The translations under genes were made by a program, and so were the position numbers. Shown piece by piece: positions 2,387 to 44,950 of a DNA stretch of 64,000 bases. This stretch comes from Modestobacter sp. VKM Ac-2985. GTDB lineage: Bacteria > Actinomycetota > Actinomycetes > Mycobacteriales > Geodermatophilaceae. Within the stretch, counting starts at the first letter, position 1. Every line of letters starts with the position of its first letter. The DNA is taken from the NCBI RefSeq assembly GCF_026967925.1, contig NZ_JAPVBI010000001.1:682001-746000 (forward strand), read 5' to 3'. Below the pieces are notes generated by a model. The model did not search any database. It had not been told where the DNA came from and saw only the letters and a program-made list of their open reading frames with translations.

Positions 2387-2424
2387 GGCGTGCGGCCGTC
2401 GCGGTTCTCCCCGGCGGACCGCGA

Positions 2425-2500
2425 TGGGGGATGGGGTAATCGGCAGCCCGCCGGCCTTTGGAGCCGTGCAGTCTCGGTTCGAGTCCGAGTCCCCCAGCCA
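2425..2500 (+). tRNA. tRNA-Gln (anticodon TTG)
   Basis: The acceptor arms TGGGGGA (2425-2431) and TCCCCCA (2490-2496) pair over 7 bp. The T-loop is TTCGAGT. The anticodon loop CTTTGGA places TTG at 34-36, reading CAA. The discriminator is G and CCA (2498-2500) is encoded. The outermost anticodon-stem pair is a C/T mismatch; the rest of the cloverleaf is regular. It sits 51 nt upstream of the glmU start and may share its transcript. Confidence 0.93.
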
Positions 2501-2551
2501 GTCGGCGCCGACGCGCGCCGCCATCCCGTCGCCACCGCGAGGAGCTCGTTC

Positions 2552-4084
2552 GTGACCCTGCAGGACACCGCCGCCACGGAGGGCGCCGTCGGCGCCGTCG
2601 TCGTCCTCGCCGCCGGGCAGGGCACCCGGATGCGCTCGCGCACCCCCAAGGTGCTGCACCCGCTCGGGGGGCGCTCGCTGCTGGGCCACGTGCTGGCCGC
2701 CGCCGCCCCGTTGCGGGCCGCGCAGACCGTCGTCGTCGTCGGATCCGGTCGCGAGGCCGTGGCCGAGCACCTCGGCGGGATCGCGCCGGGGGCGCTGCCG
2801 GTCGTGCAGGAGGAGCAGCTGGGCTCCGGACACGCTGCGGCCGTCGCGCTCGACGCGCTGGCGGAGGTGACCGGCGCGGTGCTGATCCTCAACGGGGACG
2901 CACCGCTGCTGCGGGAGGAGACGCTGACCGCACTCGTCCGGGCGCACCAGCAGGCCGGCGACCTGCTCACCGTGCTCACCGCCGAGGTGGCCGACCCCAC
3001 CGGCCTGGGGCGGATCGTCCGGGACGCCCAGGGTGCGGTGCGGGCCATCGTCGAGGAACGGGACGCCGACGACGCCCAGCGCGCGATCCACGAGGTGAAC
3101 GCCGGGGTGTACGTCGGGAACGCCGCCGCCGTGCGGGAGGCGCTGACCAGGGTCGGGGCCGCCAACGACCAGGGTGAGCAGTACCTGACCGACGTGCTGG
3201 GGCTGCTCGTGGCCGACGGCGCGCCGGTCGGTGGGCACCGGGCGGCCGACCCCGAGGACACGCTCGGCTGCAACGACCAGCGCGAGCTGGCCGCCCGGCG
3301 CCGCACGATGAACGACCGGGTGCTCGACGACCTGATGCGAGCCGGGGTGGTCGTGGTGGACCCGCTGACCACCTGGGTCGACGTGACCGTGGAGGTGGCG
3401 GCGGAGGTCGTCCTGCACCCGGGCACGCAGCTGCTCGGCGCGACGACCGTGCGGGCCGGCGCGGTGGTCGGCCCGGACAGCACGCTGGTCGACACCGAGG
3501 TGGGGGAGGGGGCGTCGGTCGTCCGGTCCCACGTCCAGCTGGCCGAGATCGGCCCGGCGGCGACCGTCGGCCCGTTCAGCTACCTCCGCCCGGGCACCCG
3601 GCTGGGCCGCGGGGCGAAGGTGGGCGCCTACGTCGAGACCAAGAACGTCGAGGTCGGCGAGGGGTCCAAGGTGCCGCACCTGTCCTACGTCGGCGACGCG
3701 ACCATCGGCGAGCACAGCAACATCGGCGCCGCGACGGTCTTCGTCAACTACGACGGCGTCGACAAGCACCGCACCACGGTGGGTGACCACGTGCGGATCG
3801 GCTCGGACACCATGCTCGTGGCGCCGGTCACCGTGGGCGACGGTGCCTACACCGCCGCCGGGTCCGTGATCACCACCGACGTCCCGCCCGGGGCCATGGC
3901 CGTCGCCCGGGCGCGCCAGCGCAATGTGGCAGGCTGGGTCGCGCGGCGCCGACCGGGTACACCCGGCGCAGAGGCCGCAGCAGCGGCTGACGACGCAGCT
4001 GCCGCAGCCACCGACACCCGAACCACCGACTCCGCGGACCGGCCCCCGGCCGCGACGGACGACGACGAGCAGGGGCGACCATGA
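2552..4084 (+). CDS. glmU: Bifunctional UDP-N-acetylglucosamine pyrophosphorylase / glucosamine-1-phosphate N-acetyltransferase GlmU
   Basis: Makes UDP-GlcNAc for peptidoglycan and, here, possibly for the EPS locus downstream. The N-terminal uridylyltransferase domain carries LAAGQGTRM (19-27) followed by TPKVLHPLGG. The C-terminal half is a left-handed beta-helix with hexapeptide repeats and the acetyltransferase segment NYDGVDKHRTTVGD (around residue 400). 510 residues, with an Ala/Asp-rich tail of ~45 residues beyond the enzyme core. The GTG at 2552 follows a clear purine-rich site (CGAGGAG) and the tRNA. The open frame further upstream runs through the tRNA and is rejected. The stop overlaps the prs start in an ATGA, indicating translational coupling. 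Confidence 0.95.
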   Translation: MTLQDTAATEGAVGAVVVLAAGQGTRMRSRTPKVLHPLGGRSLLGHVLAAAAPLRAAQTVVVVGSGREAVAEHLGGIAPGALPVVQEEQLGSGHAAAVALDALAEVTGAVLILNGDAPLLREETLTALVRAHQQAGDLLTVLTAEVADPTGLGRIVRDAQGAVRAIVEERDADDAQRAIHEVNAGVYVGNAAAVREALTRVGAANDQGEQYLTDVLGLLVADGAPVGGHRAADPEDTLGCNDQRELAARRRTMNDRVLDDLMRAGVVVVDPLTTWVDVTVEVAAEVVLHPGTQLLGATTVRAGAVVGPDSTLVDTEVGEGASVVRSHVQLAEIGPAATVGPFSYLRPGTRLGRGAKVGAYVETKNVEVGEGSKVPHLSYVGDATIGEHSNIGAATVFVNYDGVDKHRTTVGDHVRIGSDTMLVAPVTVGDGAYTAAGSVITTDVPPGAMAVARARQRNVAGWVARRRPGTPGAEAAAAADDAAAAATDTRTTDSADRPPAATDDDEQGRP

Positions 4085-6944: not shown

Positions 6945-7101
6945 AAGGACCGCCGTCCGCATTGCCTCCGTTCCTCACCGTCTGTGATGGTTGCTGAGCG
7001 TCACCAGTGCAGCAGGTCCTCCGGGTCCGACCCGGGAACGACCAGCTCCTGCGTGTCGCCAGCGCACTGTGCGTGATCACTGCGGAGAACCTGGGGGCCC
7101 C

Positions 7102-8607
7102 ATGCTGCTCGAACGTGCGGAACTGACCGACACCGTCGGTCACGCGCCGTCGGGGGCGGTCCCGTCGCCTCCGGTCACGGGGCAGCTGCCGGCCACCGGT
7201 GCGCGCGCCCGGGGCACTGCCCGCTGGGTCCGGCGGCACCGCGCCGGCCTGGTCGTCGGCGAGGCGCTGATCGCGGCGTCGGCGGCGGCCGTGGTGCTGC
7301 TGGCCCACGACGGGCCGGTGGTGGGCAGCGTCCTGTTCTGGGCCGGGCTGAGCCTGGTCGTCGCCTGGCCGGTGCTGCTCACCGTCACCGGTGCCTACGA
7401 GGAGCGCTGGTTCGGCGTGGGCAGCGACGAGTTCCGTCGCGTCGGCCGGGCCGGGATGCTGCTGCTGGCCGGGATGGGGTTCCTCAGCTACGCCGCCCAG
7501 CTCGACCTCAGCCGTGCGCTGGTGGTCCTCGCCGTCCCGGCGCTCGCCGGCGCGACCCTGGTCGAGCGGTACGCCGCCCGGCGCGTGCTGCACCGCCAGC
7601 GGATGGCCGGGCGCTGCGTCAAGCGCGTCGTGGTCGTCGGGCGCGGGGGTGCGGTCCTGGACCTGGTCGACCGGCTGCACCGCACCCGGCACGCCGGTCT
7701 GGACGTCGTCGGCGTCTGCGTGACGCCGGGGGACCGCAGCCGGGTGGCGCGGGTGGCCGGCCTGCCGGTCGCCGGCCTGGACGACGTGGTCGAGCTCGCC
7801 GGCCGGGTCGGGGCCGACACCATCGCCGTGACCTCCGCCAGCGAGACGGCGTCGGCGTACCTGCGGGCGCTGTCCTGGCAGCTCGAGGGCACGGGCCTGG
7901 AGCTGCTCGTGGCCCCCGGACTGGTCGAGGTGGCCGGCCCGCGCCTGCACATCCGGCCCTTCGACGGGCTGCCCCTCCTCTCGGTCGAGCAGCCCCGGTT
8001 CGAGGGCTGGCGCCGGGTGGTCAAGGGCGCTCTCGACCGGTCGGTCGCCTCCCTCGGACTGCTGCTCCTCACGCCGGTCCTGGCAGCGCTCGCCCTGGCG
8101 GTCCGGCTGTCCAGCCCCGGCCCGGTCCTCTACCGGCAGCAGCGGGTGGGGCTCGGCGGGCGGCACTTCACGATGCTCAAGTTCCGCAGCATGGTGGTCG
8201 GAGCCGACCAGCAGGTCGCCGGGCTGTCCGACGGCAACGAGGCCGACGGCCTGCTGTTCAAGATCCGGCAGGACCCGCGGGTGACGCCGGTCGGTCGCTG
8301 GATGCGCCGGCTCTCCCTCGACGAGCTGCCCCAGCTGTTCAACGTGCTCACCGGGGAGATGTCCCTGGTGGGGCCGCGCCCGCCGCTGCCCGACGAGGTC
8401 GCGCGCTACGACACCTCGGTCAGCCGCCGACTGCTGGTGAAGCCGGGCCTCACCGGGCTGTGGCAGATCTCCGGGCGCAGCGACCTGCCGTGGGAGGAGG
8501 CCGTCCGGCTGGACCTCCGCTACGTGGAGAACTGGTCGCTCGCGATGGACGTGCAGATCCTCTGGAAGACCGCCCGCGCCGTGGTCTCCGCCTCGGGGGC
8601 GTACTGA
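7102..8607 (+). CDS. Polyprenyl glycosylphosphotransferase (initiating sugar-1-phosphate transferase, WbaP/CpsE-like)
   Basis: Integral membrane enzyme expected to transfer a sugar 1-phosphate from a nucleotide sugar to undecaprenyl phosphate, starting the EPS repeat. 501 residues: several N-terminal membrane helices (~50-170), a CoA-binding-like cytosolic region, then the bacterial sugar transferase domain (~310-501). Diagnostic motifs are LKFRSM and the DELPQLFNVLTGEMSLVGPRP stretch, whose Asp-Glu pair is catalytic. ATG at 7102 follows a GGAG-containing leader; frame upstream to 6991 lacks similarity. The sugar cannot be told from sequence. It is the first gene of the EPS locus. Confidence 0.92.
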   Translation: MLLERAELTDTVGHAPSGAVPSPPVTGQLPATGARARGTARWVRRHRAGLVVGEALIAASAAAVVLLAHDGPVVGSVLFWAGLSLVVAWPVLLTVTGAYEERWFGVGSDEFRRVGRAGMLLLAGMGFLSYAAQLDLSRALVVLAVPALAGATLVERYAARRVLHRQRMAGRCVKRVVVVGRGGAVLDLVDRLHRTRHAGLDVVGVCVTPGDRSRVARVAGLPVAGLDDVVELAGRVGADTIAVTSASETASAYLRALSWQLEGTGLELLVAPGLVEVAGPRLHIRPFDGLPLLSVEQPRFEGWRRVVKGALDRSVASLGLLLLTPVLAALALAVRLSSPGPVLYRQQRVGLGGRHFTMLKFRSMVVGADQQVAGLSDGNEADGLLFKIRQDPRVTPVGRWMRRLSLDELPQLFNVLTGEMSLVGPRPPLPDEVARYDTSVSRRLLVKPGLTGLWQISGRSDLPWEEAVRLDLRYVENWSLAMDVQILWKTARAVVSASGAY

Positions 8608-8790: not shown

Positions 8791-10077
8791 ATGCCACGGA
8801 ACACGTCGGGGAAGCTGCGCATCGCGCTGGTCGGCACGCGCGGTGTCCCGGCGCGCTACGGCGGCTTCGAGACGGCCGTCGAGGAGGTCGGCCGCCGGCT
8901 GGTCGACGCCGGGCACGACGTCGTCGTCTACTGCCGGACGGCGGCGGACCAGCCGCGGCCGACCACGCACCTGGGCATGCGCCTGGTGCACCTGCCCGCC
9001 CTGCACCGTCGGTCGCTGGAGACGCTGAGCCACACCGGCCTCTCGGTCGCGCATCTGCTGGGGCACCGGGTCGACGCCGCGATCGTGTTCAACGCGGCCA
9101 ACGCCCCGTGGCTGCCGCTGCTGCGCGCCGCGCGGATCCCGGTGGCCACGCACGTCGACGGGCTGGAGTGGCAGCGCGCCAAGTGGGGCGGAGCCGGACG
9201 GCGCTACTACCGCATCGTCGAGGCGCTCTCGGTCCGCTGGTCCGATGCGCTCATCGCCGACGCCCAGGGCATCGCCGACTACTACCGCGACGAGTTCGCC
9301 GCCCCGACCCAGCAGCTGGCCTACGGCGCCCCGAAGATCGCCAACGCCGCCGCGTCGAAGCTCGCGGCCGTCGACCTGACGTCCCGGGGGTTCCACCTGG
9401 CCGTGGCCCGGTTCGAGCCGGAGAACCACGTCGACGTGATCGTCGAGGGCTACCGCCGCAGCGGGGCGACCCTGCCGCTGGTCGTGGTCGGCTCGGCGCC
9501 CTACGCCGACGAGTACACCGCGCGGGTGCACGCCCTGGCCGATGAGCGGGTGCGCTTCCTCGGCGGCGTCTGGGACCAGGAGCTGCTCGACCAGCTCTAC
9601 GCCCACTGCGCCACCTACCTGCACGGTCACTCCGTCGGCGGCACCAACCCCTCGCTGCTGCGGGCGATCGGTGCCGGGGCGGCCACCCTCGCCTTCGACG
9701 TCTCCTTCAACCGGGAGGTGCTGCAGAGCAGCGGCCGCTACTTCCGCACCGCTGCAGACGTGTCGGCCGCGGTGAACGCTGCCGAGGCCGATCCCGCCGG
9801 GGTCCGCCGCGACGGCAACCGGGCCCGGGTGATGGCCGCCCGGTACGACTGGGACGACGTCGCGTCCGGCTACGAGAGCCTGTGCCAGCAGCTGGCCGCC
9901 CGGGAGTTCCCGCGCTCGCGGCCCAGCGGACGTCGCCGTCCCGGCGGAGCGACGGCCGGACCGGTGCGCACCCTGGCACCGCAGTCGCCCCTGCCGTCCG
10001 AGGTGCCGCTGCCCCGGGTCGCCGGACCGGCGAACGTCGTGGCCGAGGTCCCCCCGGCCCAGGTGGCGCAGTCGTGA
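8791..10077 (+). CDS. Glycosyltransferase, DUF1972/GT4 type
   Basis: 428 residues. The N-terminus IALVGTRGVPARYGGFETAV is the hallmark of the DUF1972 domain, found at the front of GT-B retaining glycosyltransferases (rhamnosyl- and similar transferases). The GT4 half shows FEPENHVDVIVEGY and the HGHSVGGTNPSLLRAIGAG nucleotide-sugar segment. Cytoplasmic or membrane-peripheral enzyme that adds a sugar to the lipid-linked EPS intermediate. SD GAGAAGGAG lies upstream of the ATG. The stop overlaps the next start (GTGA), so the two are coupled. The last ~45 residues are a Pro/Arg-rich tail. Confidence 0.9.
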   Translation: MPRNTSGKLRIALVGTRGVPARYGGFETAVEEVGRRLVDAGHDVVVYCRTAADQPRPTTHLGMRLVHLPALHRRSLETLSHTGLSVAHLLGHRVDAAIVFNAANAPWLPLLRAARIPVATHVDGLEWQRAKWGGAGRRYYRIVEALSVRWSDALIADAQGIADYYRDEFAAPTQQLAYGAPKIANAAASKLAAVDLTSRGFHLAVARFEPENHVDVIVEGYRRSGATLPLVVVGSAPYADEYTARVHALADERVRFLGGVWDQELLDQLYAHCATYLHGHSVGGTNPSLLRAIGAGAATLAFDVSFNREVLQSSGRYFRTAADVSAAVNAAEADPAGVRRDGNRARVMAARYDWDDVASGYESLCQQLAAREFPRSRPSGRRRPGGATAGPVRTLAPQSPLPSEVPLPRVAGPANVVAEVPPAQVAQS

Positions 10078-10844
10078 GCACCGTCCTCGAGCCGGCGACC
10101 CCGGCTGCCGTGCCCGGAGAGACCTTCCAGGAGACGCTGGGCCGGCTGGCCGGGGCGCAGAAGGGCGCCAAGGGCGCACCCGCCTACTCCCGGTTCGTCA
10201 ACCGCAAGCTGGGTCGGGTCCTCGCGGCGGTGGCCTTCCACGCCGGCCTGACGCCGAACGCGGTCACCGGGATCAGCGCGCTGTGCACCTTCAGCGGCAT
10301 CGGCGTCCTCGCCCTGGTCGCACCGTCGTGGCCGGTCGGGGTGCTGGTGGCCGCCCTGCTCGCCGTCGGTTACGCGCTGGACTCCGCCGACGGGCAGCTC
10401 GCGCGACTGCGCGGCGGCGGCTCGCCGGCGGGGGAGTGGCTCGACCACATGGTGGACGCGCTCAAGATCGCCAGCCTCCACCTCGCGCTGCTGGTCGGGG
10501 TGTACCGGTTCGAGCCGGTCGAGCGGGGGCCCTGGCTGCTCGTGCCGCTGGCGTTCTCCGTGGTCTCGGTGGTGCTGTTCTTCGGCACGCTGCTCAACGA
10601 GTCGCTGCGCGCCCAGCACGGTGCGCGCACCCGGGCGGCGCACACCACCGACGAGCGGCCCAGCGTGCTGCGCTCGCTGATCGTCCTGCCGACCGACTAC
10701 GGGCTGCTGTGTCTGGTGTTCGTGCTGCTCGGGGCTCCGCTGGTGTTCCTGTCGGTCTACGCACTGCTCGCGCTGGCGACCGGTGGCTTCCTGGTCCTCG
10801 CCTGCAGCACGTGGTTCCGGGAGATGGGCAGGTTGGTCCGATGA
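10074..10844 (+). CDS. CDP-alcohol phosphatidyltransferase family membrane protein
   Basis: 256-residue membrane enzyme carrying the full CDP-alcohol phosphotransferase signature D-x2-DG-x2-AR-x8-G-x3-D-x3-D, from DSADGQLAR to EWLDHMVD (about residues 100-128), followed by several hydrophobic helices. The family joins a CMP-activated phospho-alcohol to an acceptor alcohol. Its place between EPS glycosyltransferases, with a cytidylyltransferase in the same locus (28063), suggests it decorates or anchors the polysaccharide rather than making bulk phospholipid. The substrate is unknown. It overlaps both neighbours by 4 nt (GTGA upstream, ATGA downstream). Confidence 0.9.
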   Translation: MSTVLEPATPAAVPGETFQETLGRLAGAQKGAKGAPAYSRFVNRKLGRVLAAVAFHAGLTPNAVTGISALCTFSGIGVLALVAPSWPVGVLVAALLAVGYALDSADGQLARLRGGGSPAGEWLDHMVDALKIASLHLALLVGVYRFEPVERGPWLLVPLAFSVVSVVLFFGTLLNESLRAQHGARTRAAHTTDERPSVLRSLIVLPTDYGLLCLVFVLLGAPLVFLSVYALLALATGGFLVLACSTWFREMGRLVR

Positions 10845-11551
10845 GCAGGGTGCACACCGAGCCCGAGGCCGGCATCCCCCCGGCGCGACGCCGCGGGCCA
10901 TGGGTCGCGCTGGCCCTCCTGGTCGTCGCCGCGCTGGTCGCCGTCGGCCTGCTGGTGAGCGGGAGGGGCGGGGAGGGCTCGACGACGCAGCCGGACGCCG
11001 GAGGGTCGCCCGCGGCGACGGGCACCGCCGCCCCCGCCACCTCCGCCCCCGCCACCTCCGCTGCCGCAGAGACCGACGCCGACGCCGGTGCGGGGACGGA
11101 CGCCGCGGCCGTGGTCGCGGCCACCCCGACGGCCCAGGGGTCGCCCGACCTGCCCGAGGACCTCCCGGCGGTGGCGCTCGACGAGCCCGTCGCGGTCGAT
11201 GCGGTCACGATGTCGGTGGTCTCCCTGGAGGCGATCGACGGGCAGGCCTCCGGGCCGGGCAACGTCAGCGGACCGGCTGTGCGGGTCACCGTGCGGATCA
11301 CCAACGACGGCAGCGCGCCGCTCGTGCTGGACGGTGCGGTGGTGACCGTCGTCCACGGCGCGGACGCCACGCCGGCCGCGCCGCTGGACGACCCCTCCGC
11401 GCTCCGGTTCACCGGCTCGCTGGCCGCCGGCGAGTCAGCAGCAGGTGTCTACGTGTTCAGCGTGCCCGCCGAGCAGCGCGGGGACGTGCGGGTCCAGGTG
11501 GCCCACCAGCCGGGTGCCCCGGTCGCCGTCTTCACCGGCGCGGCCGGGTAG
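10841..11551 (+). CDS. Hypothetical membrane-anchored extracellular protein
   Basis: 236 residues. A short basic N-terminus is followed by one membrane helix (~20-42) and a Pro/Ala/Thr/Ser-rich linker (~45-105) that includes a DNA-level 15-bp tandem repeat. A ~110-residue beta-rich domain follows, containing VRVTVRITNDGSAPLVLDGAVVTV, which resembles DUF4352-type immunoglobulin-like domains. Probably anchored in the membrane with the domain outside. Translationally coupled to the CDP-alcohol transferase (ATGA), and followed by two hairpins, so it closes this operon. No enzymatic motif is visible; an EPS-surface role is inferred from position. Confidence 0.75.
   Translation: MSRVHTEPEAGIPPARRRGPWVALALLVVAALVAVGLLVSGRGGEGSTTQPDAGGSPAATGTAAPATSAPATSAAAETDADAGAGTDAAAVVAATPTAQGSPDLPEDLPAVALDEPVAVDAVTMSVVSLEAIDGQASGPGNVSGPAVRVTVRITNDGSAPLVLDGAVVTVVHGADATPAAPLDDPSALRFTGSLAAGESAAGVYVFSVPAEQRGDVRVQVAHQPGAPVAVFTGAAG
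11031..11060 (+). repeat. 15-bp perfect tandem repeat (2 copies)
   Basis: CCCCCGCCACCTCCG repeats exactly twice in frame and encodes part of the Ala/Pro/Thr/Ser linker of the protein at 10841. Such repeats change copy number easily and would alter linker length in 5-residue steps. Confidence 0.85.
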
Positions 11552-11742: not shown

Positions 11743-11796
11743 TCACCGACCGGTCCAACGGGCCCGGCGCGCGCGGGTCTCGAACGGTGGGAACAG

Positions 11797-14700
11797 ATGT
11801 CTGCAGTGACACGGACGAGCAGGTCGGCGGTGGCCGGGGTGATCGCGCTCCTGCTGGTGACCGGGGTGCTCGGCGTCTTCACCGGCACCGCCCGGGCGGA
11901 CTCCGCCCCGGCGGACCCGGCCGCCCCGGCGACGCCGACGACCGTGACCGCCGACGGGCTGCCGACCGTGCAGATCAACGGGGTCGCCTGGTCCCAGGTG
12001 GTGGTCGGCGACACCGTCTACGTGGCCGGCAAGTTCACCAGCGCCCGTCCGGCAGGTGCGCCGGCCGGCACACAGGAGACGGTGCGCAACAACCTCCTCG
12101 CCTACGACATCCGCACCGGCGAACTCGTCACCTCCTTCGCCCCGGACCTCAACGCCCAGGCGTTGGTGGTCACCGCCTCCCCGGACGGTTCCCGGGTCTA
12201 CGTCGGTGGCGACTTCAGCCAGGCGAACGGGCAGACCCGCTACCGGGTGGCCGCCTACAGCACCGCGACCGGTGAGCTCGTCGCCGGCTTCCAGCCCAGC
12301 GCCAACGGGCGGGTCAACGCCATCGCCGCCACGGACTCCACCGTGTACCTGGGCGGCACGTTCTCCGCCATCGGCTCGACCGCCCGCGCCCGGCTGGCCG
12401 CGGTGTCCGCGAGCACCGGTGCGCTGCAGCCCTGGGCGCCGGTCCCCGGCGTCGGCTCGACGGCCGGCAACACCAACGGCAACACCTCCACCAGCGACGC
12501 CGTCCGGGCCCTGGTCGTCACCGGCGGCGGGACGCAGGTCGTGGCGGCCGGGAGCTTCGACAGCCTGAACGGCGTCAAGGCCACCGGGGTGGGGGCCCTC
12601 GACCCGGTCTCCGGCGCCACCCGGCCGTTCGCGATCAACGAGCTGATCACCAACCAGGGCGTCAACTCGGCCGTCTACAGCCTGAGCACCGACGGGACGA
12701 CGGTCTACGGCACCGCCTTCGACTTCTACGGCCCGGGCAATCTCGAGGGGTCCTTCGCCGCGGCCGCCGACGGTGGCGCGGTGCAGTGGGTCAACGACTG
12801 CCACGGGGACACCTACTCCAGCTTCCCGAGCAACGGGGCGCTGTACATGGCGACCCACGCCCACGTCTGCAGCAACATCGGCGGGTACCCCGAGGAGAGC
12901 CCCCGGATCAACAAGTTCGCCACCGCGGTCAGCCTGACCGCCACCGGCACCGTCGGCACCGACACCCTGGAGAACGCGAACCTGGCCGGTCAGCCGGCGC
13001 CGTCGCTGCAGACCTGGTTCCCCACGATGTCCCCCGGCAGCTACACCGGCCAGAACCAGGCCGGCTGGACGGTGAGCGGCAACGACGAGTACGTCGTCTA
13101 CGGCGGTGAGTTCCCCCAGGTCAACGGGGTCGCCCAGCAGGGCCTCGTCCGCTACGCGTTCAGCGACACCGCGCCGAACAGGATCGGCCCGTCCGTCGAC
13201 GGCCTGACCCCGACGGTCACCGCGCTGGCCCCGGGCGCCGCCCGGGTCGCCTGGACCGCCAGCAGCGACCAGGACAACGCGGTGCTCACCTACCGCGTCC
13301 ACCGCGACGGCGACATGACCACGCCCGTCCACGAGGTCACCCGCTCCTCGACCTTCTGGGACACCCCGGTGCTCGCCTTCGTCGACACCGGCGTCAGCGC
13401 CGGGCAGCACACCTACCGGGTCACCGTGAGCGACCCGTTCGGCAACCGTCCGACCTCGGCCTGGGTGCCGGTCACCGTCACCGCGGGCGCCACCCCCGCC
13501 CGGCCGTACGCCGCCGCCGTGGTCGCCGACGGCGCGCAGTCCTACTGGCCCCTCGGTGAGGCCACCGGCCGGACCGGCTACGACTGGGCCGGCAGGTCGG
13601 ACCTGACCCTCGGCACCGGCGTGACCACCGGCCAGGCCGGTGCGGTGCAGGGTGACGCGGACACCGCGGCGCGGTTCAGCGGCACCAGCAGCGGCCTCGC
13701 CGCCACCACGTCGGCGGTCGCCGCGCCCGACACCTTCACGGTGGAGGCCTGGTTCGCCACGACGACCCGTCTGGGCGGCAAGGTCATCGGCTTCGGCAGC
13801 AAGTCGAGCGGAACCAGCGGCAGCTACGACCGGCACGTCTACCTGGACAGCAGCGGCCGGCTGACCTTCGGCGTCCACGCCGGCTCCCAGCAGACCATCC
13901 GGACCACCGGGTCGTACAACGACGGGCAGTACCACCACGTCGTGGCCCAGCTGAGCTCCGCCGGCATGGCCCTGTACGTCGACGGGGAGCTGATCGGCGC
14001 CAAGACCGGTGTCACCGAGGGCCGGGCGTACCGCGGCTACTGGCGGATCGGTGGGGACACCACCTGGGGGAACAACGGCACCTGGTTCGCCGGCACGGTC
14101 GACGAGGTCGCCGTCTACCCGACGGCGCTGTCGGCGGACGTCGTCGCCAGCCACCACAGCCTCGGGACGACCGGCAAGGCCACCAACGTGGCACCGGTCG
14201 CCACCTACACCGCCGCCGCCACCTTCCTGGACGTCGCCCTCGACGCCTCGGCCTCGACCGACCGGGACGGTTCGATCGCGTCCTGGGACTGGACCTTCGG
14301 CGACGGCTCGAGCGGCTCCGGGGCGACCACGGCGCACAGCTACGCAGCCGCCGGCACCTACCCGGTCACCCTGACCGTCACCGACGACCAGGGCGCCAGC
14401 AGCACGCACACGACCGACGTGACCGTGCAGGCGGAGCCGCCGAACGCCGCCCCCACCGCAGCCTTCACGGCCACCGGCACGGGCCTGGCCGGCAGCTTCG
14501 ACGCCGCGGCCTCGACCGACGCCGACGGGACCGTCGCCGAGTACCGCTGGGACCTCGGGGACGGCAGCACCGCCACCGGGCGGACCACGTCCCACACCTA
14601 CGCCGCGGGCGGCACGTACACCGTGACCCTCACGGTCGTCGACGACGACGGGGCGACCGGGACGACGACGCAGGAGCTGACCGTGGCCGCTGCGGCGGTG

Positions 14701-16536
14701 CACGCCGCCGACGGGTTCAGCCGCACGGTGGCCAGCGGTCTCGGTACGGCCGAGGTCGGCGGCGCCTGGACGGCCTCGGCGCCGGCCCGCAGCTCGGTGG
14801 CCGACGGGGCCGCGCACCTGCAGACCGGTGCCGGCCAGACCAGCTCGGTGTTCCTGGACTCGGTGGCCCAGAGCGACGTCACGGTGCAGGCGAAGGTGTC
14901 CCTCGGTTCCGTGCCGACCGGCGGTGGCGCCTACGTCTCCGTCGTCGGACGGCACGTGGGCACCAGCGACTACCGGCTGCTCACCCGCTACCTGGCCGAC
15001 GGCCGGGTGCTGCTGACCCTGTCCCGGCTGGTCGACGGCGTGCAGACCGACCTGCGGGGCGCCTGGCTGCCCGGCACCTACACCGCCGGCACCGCCCTGC
15101 AGCTCCGGTTCGACGTCAGCGGCACCTCGACCGCCGCACTCAAGGCCAAGGCCTGGGTGGACGGGACGACCGAGCCGACCGCGTGGCAGGTCAGCACCAC
15201 CGACACCACGGCTGCGCTCCAGGCCGCCGGTGGCGTGGGCCTGTCGGTCTACCTCTCGAGTTCGGCCACCTCGGCCCTCCGGCTCGACCTGGACGACGTG
15301 TGGGCCGGCCGTTCCGGGCAGACCCCGACCGATGCCGTCAACCAGGCGCCCACCGCCGCGTTCACCGACACGGTGACCGGGTTGCGCGTCGCGGTCGACG
15401 GCACCGGCTCCAGCGACGTCGACGGCGTCGTCGCCGGCCTGGCCTGGGACTTCGGCGACGGGACGACGGTCACGGGCGCCACCGCGACGCACACCTACGC
15501 CGCGGCCGGCACCTACCGCGTCCGGCTCACCGTGACCGACGAGGACGGCGCCACCGGCACCACCGAGCGCTCGGTGACGGTCACCGACCCGCCGGTCGAG
15601 CCGCCGGCCGACCAGTCGCCGACGGCCGTCTTCACCTCCGCGGTCGCGGACCTGGCGGTCACCGTGGACGGCTCGGGGTCCAGCGACCCCGACGGCCCGG
15701 TCGCCGCCCACGACTGGGACTTCGGTGACGGGACGACGGCGTCGGGGATGACGGCGACGCACACCTACACCGCCGCCGGCACCTACCCGGTGACGCTGAC
15801 CGTCACCGACGCCGTCGGCTCCCGGGCCACGACCAGCCAGGACGTCACGGTGACCGCCCCGGCCACCCCGCCGCCGCCGGCCGCGGAGACCCCGCTGGCC
15901 GCCGACGCCTTCGGCCGGGAGCTCGCCGCCGGCTGGGGCACCGCCGACGTGGGTGGTGCCTGGACGACGTCCGGTTGGAACGCCACCGCATCGGTGACCG
16001 GGGGCGCCGGCGTGTTCACCGCGCCCCCGGGGCACACCGTGGCGGCGGTGCTGCCCGCCGTGTCCAGCCAGGACGTGGCGCTGCAGGCGAGCATCATGGT
16101 CCCGCAGGCGACGACGGGCGGCGGTACCTACGTGGAGCTGTCGACCCGCCGGGTGGGCACCACCGAGTACCAGCTCATGCTGCTGTTCCGGCCGACCGGG
16201 GAGGTGCAGATGATCATCGTGCGGGTCGTCGACGGGGTCGAGACCGCGCTGGTGGGCGCCAACCTGCCGGGCACGTACACGCCGGGCACGCCGCTGACCG
16301 TGCGGTTCGACACCGCCGGCAACGGCACCACCACCCTGAAGGCCAAGGCGTGGGCCACCGGCACCACCGAGCCGGCGGCCTGGACGCTGACCCGTACCGA
16401 CGCCACGGCGAGCCTCCAGCGGCCCGGCGCGGTGGCCGTCAGCGAGTACGTGTCCGGGGCGGCCACCGCCTCCTCCACGGTGCAGGTCGACGACCTGTGG
16501 CTGGGTGCGGCCGGCACCGCTCCGGCGGCCGGATGA
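11797..16536 (+). CDS. Large secreted protein: beta-propeller, Fn3-like, LamG and four PKD domains with a duplicated C-terminal module
   Basis: 1579 residues with an N-terminal signal peptide (~1-34, ending TARADS). Approximate order: DUF5122-type beta-propeller repeats of the form VYVGGDFS...NGQ (55-461), Fn3-like (464-561), LamG/concanavalin-like (566-790), PKD1 (798-878), PKD2 (883-964), module X1 (968-1171), PKD3 (1181-1264), PKD4 (1272-1353), module X2 (1366-1571). X1 and X2 are clearly homologous: both have LGTAEVGGAW/WGTADVGGAW, LPGTYT and LKAKAW. PKD domains show the WDFGDG core. No LPXTG or catalytic motif is visible. Its stop overlaps the next glycosyltransferase start (ATGA), tying it to EPS synthesis. 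It may bind or organise the polysaccharide at the surface. Confidence 0.9.
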   Translation: MSAVTRTSRSAVAGVIALLLVTGVLGVFTGTARADSAPADPAAPATPTTVTADGLPTVQINGVAWSQVVVGDTVYVAGKFTSARPAGAPAGTQETVRNNLLAYDIRTGELVTSFAPDLNAQALVVTASPDGSRVYVGGDFSQANGQTRYRVAAYSTATGELVAGFQPSANGRVNAIAATDSTVYLGGTFSAIGSTARARLAAVSASTGALQPWAPVPGVGSTAGNTNGNTSTSDAVRALVVTGGGTQVVAAGSFDSLNGVKATGVGALDPVSGATRPFAINELITNQGVNSAVYSLSTDGTTVYGTAFDFYGPGNLEGSFAAAADGGAVQWVNDCHGDTYSSFPSNGALYMATHAHVCSNIGGYPEESPRINKFATAVSLTATGTVGTDTLENANLAGQPAPSLQTWFPTMSPGSYTGQNQAGWTVSGNDEYVVYGGEFPQVNGVAQQGLVRYAFSDTAPNRIGPSVDGLTPTVTALAPGAARVAWTASSDQDNAVLTYRVHRDGDMTTPVHEVTRSSTFWDTPVLAFVDTGVSAGQHTYRVTVSDPFGNRPTSAWVPVTVTAGATPARPYAAAVVADGAQSYWPLGEATGRTGYDWAGRSDLTLGTGVTTGQAGAVQGDADTAARFSGTSSGLAATTSAVAAPDTFTVEAWFATTTRLGGKVIGFGSKSSGTSGSYDRHVYLDSSGRLTFGVHAGSQQTIRTTGSYNDGQYHHVVAQLSSAGMALYVDGELIGAKTGVTEGRAYRGYWRIGGDTTWGNNGTWFAGTVDEVAVYPTALSADVVASHHSLGTTGKATNVAPVATYTAAATFLDVALDASASTDRDGSIASWDWTFGDGSSGSGATTAHSYAAAGTYPVTLTVTDDQGASSTHTTDVTVQAEPPNAAPTAAFTATGTGLAGSFDAAASTDADGTVAEYRWDLGDGSTATGRTTSHTYAAGGTYTVTLTVVDDDGATGTTTQELTVAAAAVHAADGFSRTVASGLGTAEVGGAWTASAPARSSVADGAAHLQTGAGQTSSVFLDSVAQSDVTVQAKVSLGSVPTGGGAYVSVVGRHVGTSDYRLLTRYLADGRVLLTLSRLVDGVQTDLRGAWLPGTYTAGTALQLRFDVSGTSTAALKAKAWVDGTTEPTAWQVSTTDTTAALQAAGGVGLSVYLSSSATSALRLDLDDVWAGRSGQTPTDAVNQAPTAAFTDTVTGLRVAVDGTGSSDVDGVVAGLAWDFGDGTTVTGATATHTYAAAGTYRVRLTVTDEDGATGTTERSVTVTDPPVEPPADQSPTAVFTSAVADLAVTVDGSGSSDPDGPVAAHDWDFGDGTTASGMTATHTYTAAGTYPVTLTVTDAVGSRATTSQDVTVTAPATPPPPAAETPLAADAFGRELAAGWGTADVGGAWTTSGWNATASVTGGAGVFTAPPGHTVAAVLPAVSSQDVALQASIMVPQATTGGGTYVELSTRRVGTTEYQLMLLFRPTGEVQMIIVRVVDGVETALVGANLPGTYTPGTPLTVRFDTAGNGTTTLKAKAWATGTTEPAAWTLTRTDATASLQRPGAVAVSEYVSGAATASSTVQVDDLWLGAAGTAPAAG

Positions 16537-18659
16537 CCCCCGCGGCCGTCGAACCGGTCGGCGAGGGACGGCCCTCGCCGACCGGGCTCCCCGACCCCGG
16601 CGTCCTCGGGGTCGTGGTGGTCAACTACGGCTCGGCGGCGCTCCTGGAGCGCAACCTGGCCGACGCCACGGCGGTGGGCCCCGCGGTCCGGGTCGTCGTC
16701 GTGGACAACCTCAGCACGAGCCGGGAACGGCAGGCGGTGACCACGCTGGCCGCCGCGCGCGGTTGGGACCTGGTGGCCGCTGCCGGGAACGACGGGTTCG
16801 GCGCCGCCAGCAACGCAGGCGCTGCCCGGGCGCGCGAGCTCGGGTGCACGAGCTACTGCTTCCTCAACCCCGACGCGGTGGTCACCGCGGAGGTCCTGGC
16901 GGCCCTGCGCGCGGCCAGCAGTGCCGACCCGACGGCCGTGATCGCCCCCCGGCTGACCGACTCGGCCGGGCACACGGTGTTCGAGGGCTCGCTCGTCTCC
17001 CTGACCGACGGCCGGATCCGCTCCCCGCACAGCACCTCACCGTTCCGTCGCGGACCGGTCGAACAGTGGCTGACCGGAGCGTGCCTGGTGGTGCACGCCG
17101 AGCTCTTCGACCGGATCGGCGGGTTCGCCGAGGACTACTTCCTCTACTGGGAGGACGTCGACCTCAGCCACCGGGCGCTGGCCGCCGGCGGGCACCTCGT
17201 GGTGCGGCACGACCTCGTCGCCGTGCACGACGAGGGGGGCACGCAGGGCGAGCGACGTGGTCCGGCCAAGTCGGCGCTCTACTACCGCTACAACTGCCGC
17301 AACCGCCTGCTCTTCGCCGCCCGCAACCTGGACCGCCGGGCGGTGCTGCAGTACCTGCTCAGCACCCCGGCGGTGAGCTGGGAGGTGCTGATGCGCGGCG
17401 GGCGACGGCAGCTGCTGCACTCCCCGGCGCTGCTGACCGCCGCGGTGCGCGGATCGCTGGCCGGCGTCTGGCTCGCCCTCCTCGCCCTGCTGGTCGGGCC
17501 CGCCCCGGCCGGCCGGCGTCCGGCCGTGCTGGTCGCCCACCCGGGTGCGGAGCTGTACGGCTCCGACCGGGTGCTGCTGGAGAGCGTCGCCGGCCTGGTG
17601 GCCGGTGCCGACGTCACCGTGGTGCTGCCCGGTCCGGGGCCGTTGGTCGCCGAGCTGGAGGCCCGCGGCGCACAGGTGCGGACCTGCCGGATGCCCGTGC
17701 TGCGGCGGTCGGCGCTGCGCCCTCGAGGCGCGTGCCAGCTGCTCGCCGACGCCGCCCGTGGGCTCGTCCCGGCCCTCGCGCTGCTGCGTCGGCACGGCCG
17801 TTCCGGGGTCTACGTCAACACGCTCACGATCCCCTCGTGGCTCGTGCTGGCACGCCTCCTCCGCCGGCCCACCGTCTGCCACGTGCACGAGGCGGAGCGC
17901 GGCACCCCCTGGCTGTTCCGGTGGGTCACCGCCCAGCCGCTGCGGCTCGCCGACCGCGTCGTGGTGAACAGCCGGACGACGGCCGCGGTGCTCACCGAGG
18001 TCGCGCCCAGCCTGCGCGAGCGCAGCGTCGTCGTGCTGAACGGGGTCACCGGACCGGCCACACCGGTACCGCCCCGCACCCGGCTCACCGGCGCCGTGAG
18101 GCTGGCGTTCGTCGGCCGGCTGTCGCCGCGCAAGGGCCCGCAGGTGGCGGTCGAGGCCCTCGCCGAACTGCTGTCCCGGGGCACCGACGCGCGACTGGTG
18201 CTGCTGGGCTCGGTGTTCCCCGGCTACGAGTGGTTCGAGGCCGCGCTGCGCGAGGACGTGCGGCGCCGCGGGCTGGAGGACCGGGTGGAGTTCCGCGGGT
18301 TCCGCCCCGACGTGTGGAGCACCCTCGCGGAGTGCGACCTGCTGCTGGTCCCCTCCCAGACCGACGAGTCGTTCGGCAACACCGCCGTCGAGGGCGTGCT
18401 CGCCGCCCGGCCGGTGGTGGTCAGCGACATCGCCGGACTGGTGGAGGCGACGACCGGGCTCACCTCCACCCAGGTCGTGCCCGCCGCGGACGCAGGCAGC
18501 TGGGCCGACGCGGTCCAGCGTGTCGTCGACGGGTGGCCGGTGTGCTCCGCCGCGGCGGTCGCCGACGCGCAGGAGGCCCGCCGCCGGCACGCCCCTGCCC
18601 GGCAGCAGGCGGAGGTCGCCGCCCTGGTCGACGGTCTCCCGCCGAGGGCCCGCCGGTGA
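16533..18659 (+). CDS. Two-domain glycosyltransferase: GT2 fused to GT4
   Basis: 708 residues with two complete glycosyltransferase domains. Residues ~20-300 are GT2 (GT-A fold): VVVNYGSAALLERNLADA, VVVDNLS, NDGFGAASNAG, YCFLNPDAVVT (DXD-like) and FAEDYFLYWEDVDLSHRA, as in rhamnosyltransferases. A membrane-proximal stretch follows, then from ~329 a GT4 (GT-B) domain: VAHPGAELYGSDRVLLE, FVGRLSPRKGP and the acceptor/donor segment PSQTDESFGNTAVEGVLAARPVV. The frame is uninterrupted. It probably adds two successive sugars. It is coupled to both neighbours by 4-nt overlaps. Confidence 0.9.
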   Translation: MTPAAVEPVGEGRPSPTGLPDPGVLGVVVVNYGSAALLERNLADATAVGPAVRVVVVDNLSTSRERQAVTTLAAARGWDLVAAAGNDGFGAASNAGAARARELGCTSYCFLNPDAVVTAEVLAALRAASSADPTAVIAPRLTDSAGHTVFEGSLVSLTDGRIRSPHSTSPFRRGPVEQWLTGACLVVHAELFDRIGGFAEDYFLYWEDVDLSHRALAAGGHLVVRHDLVAVHDEGGTQGERRGPAKSALYYRYNCRNRLLFAARNLDRRAVLQYLLSTPAVSWEVLMRGGRRQLLHSPALLTAAVRGSLAGVWLALLALLVGPAPAGRRPAVLVAHPGAELYGSDRVLLESVAGLVAGADVTVVLPGPGPLVAELEARGAQVRTCRMPVLRRSALRPRGACQLLADAARGLVPALALLRRHGRSGVYVNTLTIPSWLVLARLLRRPTVCHVHEAERGTPWLFRWVTAQPLRLADRVVVNSRTTAAVLTEVAPSLRERSVVVLNGVTGPATPVPPRTRLTGAVRLAFVGRLSPRKGPQVAVEALAELLSRGTDARLVLLGSVFPGYEWFEAALREDVRRRGLEDRVEFRGFRPDVWSTLAECDLLLVPSQTDESFGNTAVEGVLAARPVVVSDIAGLVEATTGLTSTQVVPAADAGSWADAVQRVVDGWPVCSAAAVADAQEARRRHAPARQQAEVAALVDGLPPRARR

Positions 18660-19645
18660 CCCCCGGGCGCCCCGTCCGGGTCACCGTGGCGGTGCCCACC
18701 TACCGGCGGCCCGAGCAGCTGCGTGCCCTGCTCCCGCTGGTGCTGGCCCAGACCCGGGCGGTCACCGTTGCGGCACCGGACGACTGGCAGGTGCGCGTCC
18801 TGGTCATCGACAACGACCCGGACGGCGGTGCGGCCGAGACGGTCGCGGACCTCACCGGACCCGACCTGCGCTACGTCGCGGAGTCCCGGCCCGGCATCCC
18901 GGCGGTCCGCAACCGGGCCCTCGACGAGGCGGCCGGGGACGACCTGCTGGTCTTCATCGACGACGACGAACGCCCCTGGCCCGGCTGGCTCGCTGCGCTG
19001 CTGGACACCTGGCGCGCCTCCGGTGCGGCCGTGGTCTCCGGCCGGGTCGTCGTGGAGCCCGCCGGGGAGCTGGACCCCTGGATCGAGGCCGGCGGCTTCT
19101 TCCTGCGCCGCCGGATGCCGACGGGCACCCGCGTGCACACCGCCTCGACGAACAACCTGCTCGTCGACGTGCAGCAGGTGCGCGAGCTCGGCATCCGGTT
19201 CTCGGTCGACGTCGGTCTGGCCGGAGGGGAGGACACCCTCTTCACCCGGGCGGTGACCCGGGCCGGCGGCTCGATCGTCTGGTGCGACGAGTCGGTGGTG
19301 GCCGACCCGGTGCCGGCCTCGCGGACCACCCGGCGCTGGGTGCTCACCCGCGCGTACTGCCACGGCAACATCGCCGTGCTCACCCCGCTGCGGCTGGCCA
19401 CCGGCCGCGGGGCGCGCTCCACCGTGCGCGTCCGGGGCGGCCTCGGCGGCGCCACCCGGGCCGTCGCCGGCACCGGCCGGTGGTCGGTCGGCGTGCTCGT
19501 CGGTTCGCTCGCGCACCAGGCCCGGGGGCGGCGGATGGCCCACCGCGGGACCGGCATGGTGGCCGGCGCCCTCGGCATTGTGGCCCAGGAGTACGCCCGT
19601 CCCGGCCAGCGCCGCCGGCAGCGACTGGTGACCACCCCGGACTGA
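18656..19645 (+). CDS. Glycosyltransferase family 2
   Basis: 329 residues, GT-A fold: VTVAVPTYRRPEQL, VIDNDPDGG, AESRPGIPAVRNRALDEAAG and the metal-binding FIDDDERP, then GGEDTLFTRAVTRAGG. It is strongly similar to the gene at 21156 on the other strand (shared DNDPDGGA, RPGI, RNRALDEAAG, FIDDDE, TNNLL and GGEDTLFT blocks), so the two are paralogues. It probably adds one sugar of the EPS repeat. GTG start, 4-nt overlap with the fusion glycosyltransferase; last gene of this + strand run, converging on the flippase gene. Confidence 0.9.
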   Translation: MTPGRPVRVTVAVPTYRRPEQLRALLPLVLAQTRAVTVAAPDDWQVRVLVIDNDPDGGAAETVADLTGPDLRYVAESRPGIPAVRNRALDEAAGDDLLVFIDDDERPWPGWLAALLDTWRASGAAVVSGRVVVEPAGELDPWIEAGGFFLRRRMPTGTRVHTASTNNLLVDVQQVRELGIRFSVDVGLAGGEDTLFTRAVTRAGGSIVWCDESVVADPVPASRTTRRWVLTRAYCHGNIAVLTPLRLATGRGARSTVRVRGGLGGATRAVAGTGRWSVGVLVGSLAHQARGRRMAHRGTGMVAGALGIVAQEYARPGQRRRQRLVTTPD

Positions 19646-44876: not shown

Positions 44877-44950
44877 GCCCCCGTAGCCCAATCGGCAGAG
44901 GCAGGCCCCTTAAAAGGGTCCCGGTGTCGGTTCGAACCCGACCGGGGGCA
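44877..44950 (+). tRNA. tRNA with anticodon TAA (Leu), atypical short variable loop
   Basis: A complete cloverleaf: acceptor GCCCCCG/CGGGGGC, D-stem GCC/GGC, anticodon stem GGCCC/GGGTC with loop CTTAAAA (anticodon TAA at 44911-44913), T-arm GTCGG/CCGAC with TTCGAAC, discriminator A73. CCA is not fully encoded (CCC). The variable loop is only CCGGT (5 nt), so it is a class I shape. Bacterial leucine tRNAs normally have a long variable arm. It would read UUA codons. Identity as Leu is from the anticodon and A73 only. Confidence 0.85.

Follow-up and report, generated by a model that had tools for sequence, protein, structure and literature searches.

The window analyzed here, a stretch of 64,000 nucleotides from Modestobacter sp. 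VKM Ac-2985, carries a run of polysaccharide-type genes around a gene for a secreted-type protein of 1579 residues (11797..16536, + strand). An initiating sugar transferase gene with a PF02397 match, which we take to be WbaP-like, lies at 6991..8607 and is followed on the same strand by genes for a GT4 glycosyltransferase with a DUF1972 match (8791..10077), a CDP-alcohol phosphotransferase (PF01066; 10074..10844), which overlaps the preceding gene by GTGA, and a 236-residue protein with an N-terminal membrane segment and an Ala/Thr-rich linker (10841..11551). The gene for this last protein, termed the partner below, overlaps the phosphotransferase gene by ATGA, and its product has a weak DUF4352 match that falls below the cut-off. 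Downstream on the + strand are genes for a two-domain GT2-GT4 glycosyltransferase (16533..18659) and a GT2 glycosyltransferase (18656..19645). On the − strand, a gene with a Pfam match to PF13440 (19658..21169) presumably encodes a Wzx-type flippase. Thus, a PF02397 initiating transferase, GT2 and GT4 enzymes and a PF13440 flippase occur together, which fits a Wzx-type EPS locus.

The 245-base gap 5′ of the 1579-residue gene has no sigma-70-like promoter or terminator pattern, and a regulatory RNA was rejected there because Rfam gives only sub-threshold matches in the gap. At the gathering threshold, Rfam reports just two tRNAs in the whole window (2425-2497 and 44877-44950); the first sits inside a listed ORF (2390-4084), so that gene probably begins further downstream. 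We presume that the long reverse-strand ORF at 11743-16035 is a shadow ORF caused by the GC-rich sequence, and a defense-system reading was dropped, as PADLOC gave no match for four proteins. Approximately 12 kb before the window lies a gene for a secreted-looking protein with C-terminal repeats (L002, G000:C1:670096), which we take to combine these with a dehydrogenase-like part and a PKD-like stretch. The adjoining gene (L005, G000:C1:671951) presumably encodes a membrane protein resembling a protein O-mannosyltransferase, a candidate for glycosylating surface proteins of this kind.

The 1579-residue protein has a hydrophobic, signal-like N-terminus followed by a beta-propeller (11896..13191, aa 34-465), an Ig/Fn3-like region (13192..13506, aa ~466-570) and a LamG/ConA-like domain (13681..14145, aa 629-783), all encoded, like the remainder of the protein, on the + strand. 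The C-terminal half is built from two units, each consisting of two PKD domains and a module that we call X. The first unit includes PKD a (14185..14436, aa 797-880), PKD b (14443..14691, aa 883-965) and X1 (14674..15333, aa 960-1179), and the second includes PKD c (15340..15582, aa 1182-1262), PKD d (15616..15858, aa 1274-1354) and the C-terminal X2 (15865..16530, aa 1357-1578). This doubled order within a 1579-residue ORF had been claimed in the original prediction, and it is present as four PKD stretches and two X profile matches, which enclose the limits initially assigned to X1 (~968-1171) and X2 (~1366-1571). The PKD families PF18911 (PKD_4) and PF00801 match four stretches each, above the curated Pfam cut-off (267.5 and 165.8 bits), and pairwise identities among the four domains are 52-62%. 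X1 and X2 had been said to share many blocks; indeed, 98 of 207 positions are identical (47%; E 4e-59), and their global alignment score of 466 lies far beyond the values from 500 shuffles (mean −6, sd 16, maximum 63). The complete units are 48% identical across 392 columns.

The propeller and LamG domain, likewise placed ahead of the PKD and X parts by the original prediction, are recognized by Pfam above the respective cut-offs (Rax2, 29.8 versus 28.8 bits; PF13385, 83 bits versus a curated 27.6, E 3.1e-23). The proposed Fn3 domain did not hold up as named: Pfam makes no Fn3 call for aa ~466-570 at E ≤ 1e-3, and a Big_13 match at 529-561 is below the cut-off, although the region itself recurs in 75 of 79 relatives.

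An AlphaFold2 model of X2, made from a 91-row alignment (mean pLDDT 96.7, pTM 0.91), is a ConA-like antiparallel beta-sandwich whose Foldseek and VIA-align matches span residues 4-212. Emp46p, lichenases, legume lectins and CBM66 appear in the Foldseek list. The structural comparisons give Z 18.6 for CBM66 of Bacillus subtilis (4b1m; 157 aligned residues, 2.1 Å), Z 18.0 for the ERGIC-53 lectin (179 residues, 3.0 Å), Z 17.7 for mycobacteriophage Douge gp20 (matched at 684-874; 183 residues, 4.8 Å) and Z 17.1 both for the TM4 gp23 receptor-binding domain (181 residues, 2.7 Å) and for Douge gp23 (matched at 116-311; 183 residues, 5.2 Å). The comparison of X with carbohydrate-binding modules that had been proposed therefore yields a CBM-type sandwich, and identity with a known non-glycan domain, which would have spoken against the earlier claim, is not what emerged, the closest among the folds listed being those of CBM66 and ERGIC-53; a fold missing from these lists was not counted as excluded. 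Conserved residues of X2 include R1451, Y1458, W1519 and E1525. The ligand of CBM66 is fructan, and the ConA-like fold also has roles other than glycan binding.

At the sequence level, X proved as unfamiliar as initially described. Neither X1 nor X2 has a Pfam match up to E 10, in a search whose filters remove most matches above 0.1; applied to 91 X sequences, Pfam finds two unrelated families, each in one sequence (E ≤ 0.01). The nearest NCBIfam entry, choice_anch_J, scores 18.9 bits against a cut-off of 30, with none above its cut-off, and PDB sequence searches give no match at E 0.05. In PHROGs, 7 of 10 X sequences match phrog_24476, annotated as a phosphodiesterase (best E 5.7e-19). X2 covers model positions 825-1022 of 1066, which suggests an X-type domain at the C-terminal end of this family, with the family name belonging to another domain. 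X as a catalogued family was thus rejected: Pfam, NCBIfam and PDB sequence searches lack an above-threshold match, and PHROGs offers only the C-terminal part of the phosphodiesterase family. The X modules are, as modeled, lectin-fold domains that Pfam does not catalogue.

A scan of genome contigs gave 308 confirmed X relatives, and the best 80 of the 308 fall into 77 loci, whose titles name Actinomycetota with the exception of one Chloroflexi MAG. Leaving aside ORFs that touch locus ends, 79 of 98 bacterial X ORFs include the propeller, and every one of the 79 runs from propeller through Ig-like region, LamG and PKD to X, counting the parts present (Ig-like region in 75, LamG in 75, PKD in 79). 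One X copy is found in 44 of these propeller-X proteins, two in 27 and three in 8, and a PKD domain precedes 121 of the 122 copies. In multi-copy proteins, 43 of 109 X copies are nearest to a sibling copy, with identities of up to 98%. As judged by these sequences, X copies multiply and homogenize within proteins. X1 and X2 of the window are 52% and 63% identical to a copy from another species and 46% identical to one another. We considered that internal and terminal copies might represent distinct types, but this found no support: on a tree of copies from multi-copy proteins only, position changes 32 times compared with a shuffled mean of 36, a value reached by 41-48 of 500 shuffles. One genome (G024; loci L155 and L171) has several propeller-X genes in tandem in one region and 13 X matches genome-wide.

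The propeller is the best conserved portion of the protein, and LamG and X evolve faster (mean pairwise similarity over 3081 pairs of 0.535, 0.482 and 0.452, respectively). Six X-bearing genomes belong to other genera of the family; their top propeller matches are 63-73% identical and their top X2 matches 44-56%.

To what extent the neighboring genes accompany the propeller-X gene can be seen in a set of 59 genomes that includes the window's own. X occurs in 28 of them, in one case (G016) as a fragment of 29 residues where the contig stops. A strong propeller match (~311 bits and more) and a partner match at E ≤ 1e-10 are found in the same 28 genomes; at E ≤ 1e-3, five more genomes have a weak partner match. 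With the thresholds E ≤ 1e-60 and E ≤ 1e-25, respectively, which leave weaker relatives outside, the GT4/DUF1972 protein is present in 28 of 59 genomes (the X set minus G051, whose locus has a weaker match of 185 bits, plus G038) and the CDP-alcohol transferase in 29 (the X set plus G038). G038 carries a 42% identical propeller without X. Thus, four genes, encoding the GT4/DUF1972 protein, the CDP-alcohol phosphotransferase, the small membrane protein and the propeller-X protein, are inherited together over the 59 genomes. As these genes form a linked block, part of this pattern may reflect block loss or transfer; the CDP-transferase is retained even at a distance of 10-28 kb or on a separate contig. 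Completeness is 67-80% for some of the genomes and 99% for three X-less genomes of the same genus.

Most of the 32 strongest partner matches (28) lie within 4 kb of the propeller on the same strand, 27 of these upstream; three others come immediately after an X copy, and the last belongs to a propeller-less contig. This placement bears on the most skeptical view of the gene, in which the repeats of a big secreted ORF in a GC-rich genome are simply retained by linkage and have no EPS role. X copy numbers of one to three and the near identity of some copies fit such a view. We nevertheless regard it as very improbable, given a partner that adjoins the propeller or X gene in 31 of 32 cases, a domain order that is constant in 79 of 79 proteins and a propeller whose best matches keep 63-73% identity across the six X genomes from outside the genus.

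The original prediction would have been undermined by homologues that never lie near EPS genes. Instead, 26 of the 28 X genomes have a WbaP-like transferase gene no more than 25 kb from X, compared with ~2.8% expected for a random point (assuming 4.7 Mb per genome), and in the other two it is on another contig. Loci for direct comparison were cut around the WbaP-like gene, which is hence present by choice. Among 23 such loci with a propeller, the GT4 and partner genes are found in 23, the CDP-transferase gene in 21 (in L156 and L157 it lies just beyond the stretch) and X in 22 (in L144 the contig stops before it). Conversely, none of the 8 loci with a WbaP-like gene and no X has the GT4, partner or CDP-transferase gene at the thresholds used; these 8 include L167-L169, where a divergent propeller falls under the cut-offs. 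The count leaves out L165 (3 kb, cut), L170-L172, which are extra stretches from counted or other genomes, and L173-L175, which were taken around X. Each of these last three contains X, the propeller, the partner and a match to GT4, and one also has the CDP-transferase in the stretch.

The wider set gives a similar, if less uniform, picture. Seven EPS-type queries (E ≤ 1e-10) find at least one match in 56 of the 77 X loci, at least two in 53 and at least three in 44. None of 31 viral X loci has such a match, phages being a weak control and the 2.8% expectation a better one. The proposed search for X in other EPS loci therefore shows homologues grouped with EPS genes across a large number of genomes. 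Placement in an EPS locus is nonetheless a partial rule: 21 of the 77 loci match none of the seven queries, 8 of these being stretches shorter than 17 kb, and about half of the 21 still contain the propeller.

Coupling to the EPS enzymes had been argued from the overlap between the stop codon of the propeller-X gene and the start of the GT2-GT4 gene. This 4-base overlap (ATGA, 16533-16536) exists, but it is local and is not conserved in relatives, in which the GT2-GT4 gene varies in size and place. The constant neighbors are the genes for the WbaP-like transferase, the GT4/DUF1972 protein, the CDP-alcohol phosphotransferase and the small membrane protein, mostly upstream, so the proposed connection through the downstream gene does not carry over to the family. 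A subtler relationship was sought in 53 loci, 12 of them with a full GT2-GT4 gene. After regression on propeller similarity, X modules are more alike at full GT2-GT4 loci (6 of 2000 permutations reach the value); for LamG under the same regression, 11 of 2000 do so, and propeller similarity regressed on GT4 shows no link to full GT2-GT4 (1457 of 2000). These permutations treat loci as independent, leaving out of account both phylogeny and the fact that X is physically linked to the downstream glycosyltransferase gene. A nearest-neighbor version gives nearly no difference (X 8, propeller 7, LamG 7 and GT4 6 of 12). The tendency of X and LamG similarity to go with a downstream full GT2-GT4 is no more than a hint.

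X is also found outside propeller proteins. Of 19 complete propeller-less X proteins, 8 were scanned together with one cut protein, and the accompanying domain matches in these nine vary: CotH with LTD (1), acid phosphatase (1), metallophosphoesterase (2), alginate lyase (2), beta-helix (2) and DUF1565 (1). A CotH/LTD protein (L066:9323-10612) has two X copies that are 98% identical; near-identical copies occur in other proteins too, which suggests recent duplication or gene conversion. The genome of the window encodes a distant X (L011, G000:C1:1428960-1429451, minus strand; 30% identical, E 7.4e-4) at the C-terminus of what we take to be a GH5-like cellulase joined to an SGNH-like enzyme.

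Twelve phage records match X by sequence (29-33% identical), of which 11 are from Streptomyces phages and 5 are annotated as minor tail proteins; the best viral structure match is likewise a minor tail protein, from phage KimJongPhill. A scan of IMG/VR with a 10-row X alignment gave 31 loci, and X2 as the lone query found none. The position of X differs between the two settings: it lies at the C-terminus (ORF end at most 15 residues away) in 101 of 108 bacterial ORFs that are uncut at the 3′ end compared with 2 of 31 viral loci. X is common, with 308 confirmed matches in one genome-contig scan, lacks a Pfam match and ties bacterial surface proteins to phage tail proteins.

The sharing of X with tail proteins of Actinomycetota phages is in keeping with a surface adhesion or coat protein whose ligand is the envelope glycan of neighboring cells or a foreign surface, with the EPS locus serving only as a regulatory neighborhood. 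Propeller-X genes in stretches without EPS-type matches point the same way, as does the presence in the fold list of 1l0q, an archaeal surface-layer propeller-PKD protein. We consider this unlikely, since the gene is so tightly co-inherited with those for the glycosyltransferase and the CDP-alcohol transferase.

The propeller model (pLDDT 96.0) matches WD40 propellers best in the structural second look, with WDR5 at Z 31.4 over 291 residues, and the top Foldseek row is an eight-bladed design. WD40 propellers such as WDR5 are seven-bladed, so the blade number is ambiguous between seven and eight. Pfam reports Rax2 above the cut-off and DUF5122 below it, and no YVTN family. Columns invariant in 70 of 70 propellers include D53, Q59, W65, R197, C335, Y350, H354, H356 and C358. 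Four of these belong to a motif, DCHGD...HxHxC (window 12799-12870, aa 335-358), in which C335, H354, H356 and C358 form a possible disulfide or metal site. Three X-less loci of the same genus (L167, L168 and L169) contain a divergent propeller, 31-33% identical, in open frames of 1480-1580 residues with two PKD hits each, 12-13 kb from the WbaP-like gene. This is perhaps a different version of the propeller-X protein, and since it occurs without the GT4, CDP-transferase and partner genes, a propeller protein can dispense with the gene set.

If C335, H354, H356 and C358 were an active or metal site, the protein might be an EPS-processing enzyme with a catalytic propeller and with LamG and X as its binding modules, acting extracellularly to trim, cross-link or modify the polymer. 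The invariance of the four residues in 70 of 70 propellers, the stronger conservation of the propeller relative to the binding modules and the occurrence of X on lyase-like and phosphatase-type proteins favor this possibility. However, the Pfam matches to the propeller (Rax2 and the sub-cut-off DUF5122) include no catalytic family, the best 50 structural rows are all WD40-type propellers, and the two cysteines may be a mere disulfide. Both the catalytic propeller and the proposed processing role are therefore doubtful, although slightly less so than a non-self ligand.

The signal-like N-terminus, conserved propeller, lectin-fold X modules and co-inherited gene set together lead us to favor a secreted EPS-layer adhesin or tether that binds polysaccharide polyvalently, to which we assign a probability of roughly 0.6. 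On this proposal, X, and perhaps the propeller, would bind EPS. In such an adhesin, the conserved propeller, which pairs with the conserved genes upstream, would bind an invariant part of the system, either a core glycan or the membrane partner, and the PKD domains would act as spacers projecting the faster-evolving LamG and X modules, which may bind a variable polysaccharide or the surface of a neighboring cell. One molecule could then cross-link coat to coat or coat to cell, and the number of X copies would set its avidity. EPS retention by soil and stone-dwelling actinobacteria is, to our knowledge, little understood, and the propeller-X protein probably shares in how these bacteria retain their polysaccharide coat. 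The co-inherited set, the conserved propeller and the uncatalogued lectin-fold module make it a definite, testable candidate for holding EPS.

A more far-reaching proposal, which we hold only tentatively, is that the GT4/DUF1972 protein, the CDP-alcohol phosphotransferase, the 236-residue membrane protein and the propeller-X protein constitute one undescribed Actinomycetota system for polysaccharide retention, with X as a new actinobacterial family of glycan-binding modules. The phosphotransferase would make a glycan that is lipid-linked or bears a phospho-alcohol, the propeller protein would be displayed by the membrane protein, and its propeller and X modules would clamp the coat. X might diversify as the EPS changes, and phages might have taken X into their tails. 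Among the papers listed in searches of an open-access library, none deals with the propeller-X protein or the gene set.

Several known systems resemble the adhesin proposed here in part. CBM66 and the ConA-like lectins ERGIC-53 and Emp46p have the fold in common with X, but they are only ~8-12% identical to it, and X has no Pfam family match. The Douge gp20 and gp23 and TM4 gp23 domains are like X in fold (Z 17.1-17.7) and in their actinobacterial cell-surface setting, but they are parts of phage tails rather than products of the cell, are 7-14% identical to X and are not matched by X in profile searches at the sequence level. The recombinant Douge domains BppU-CBM (gp23 116-311) and CFP-tip-CTD are reported to bind M. 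smegmatis as well as LAM/AM and alpha-glucan fragments (PMC13033339); we infer that CFP-tip-CTD (gp20) is the matched stretch 684-874. In the same text, all six recombinant Douge surface domains assayed, Ig-like ones included, bound these glycans (PMC13033339). As Ig-like domains bound alike, these data suggest that the fold can serve glycan binding and do not indicate specificity of the fold. The archaeal surface-layer protein 1l0q places a propeller and then PKD on the cell surface, as does the protein here, but its propeller is of the YVTN type, which Pfam does not find in our protein, and its title mentions neither X nor LamG.

The closest parallel is with Bap1 and RbmC of Vibrio cholerae. 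As described in the accessible portion of the source, these are secreted, modular proteins whose propellers, ~70% identical between them, bind the matrix polysaccharide VPS, and whose one or two lectin-like modules extend to other surfaces in the manner of a 'double-sided tape' (PMC10102183). The likeness to a secreted protein with a conserved propeller and lectin-like modules is one of analogy only. As far as that portion describes them, the lectin-like module of Bap1/RbmC is a beta-prism, whereas X is a ConA-like sandwich; their propeller is eight-bladed, whereas the best matches here are WD40 propellers; and a PKD array is described only for the protein here. No beta-prism family is among the Pfam matches of the 1579-residue protein (E ≤ 1e-3), and therefore the propeller-X protein is not a member of the Bap1/RbmC family. 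By analogy with the VPS-binding propeller, as that source presents it, we infer that the propeller-X protein may be an EPS adhesin with two binding ends, working in a Bap1/RbmC-like way while standing outside that family.
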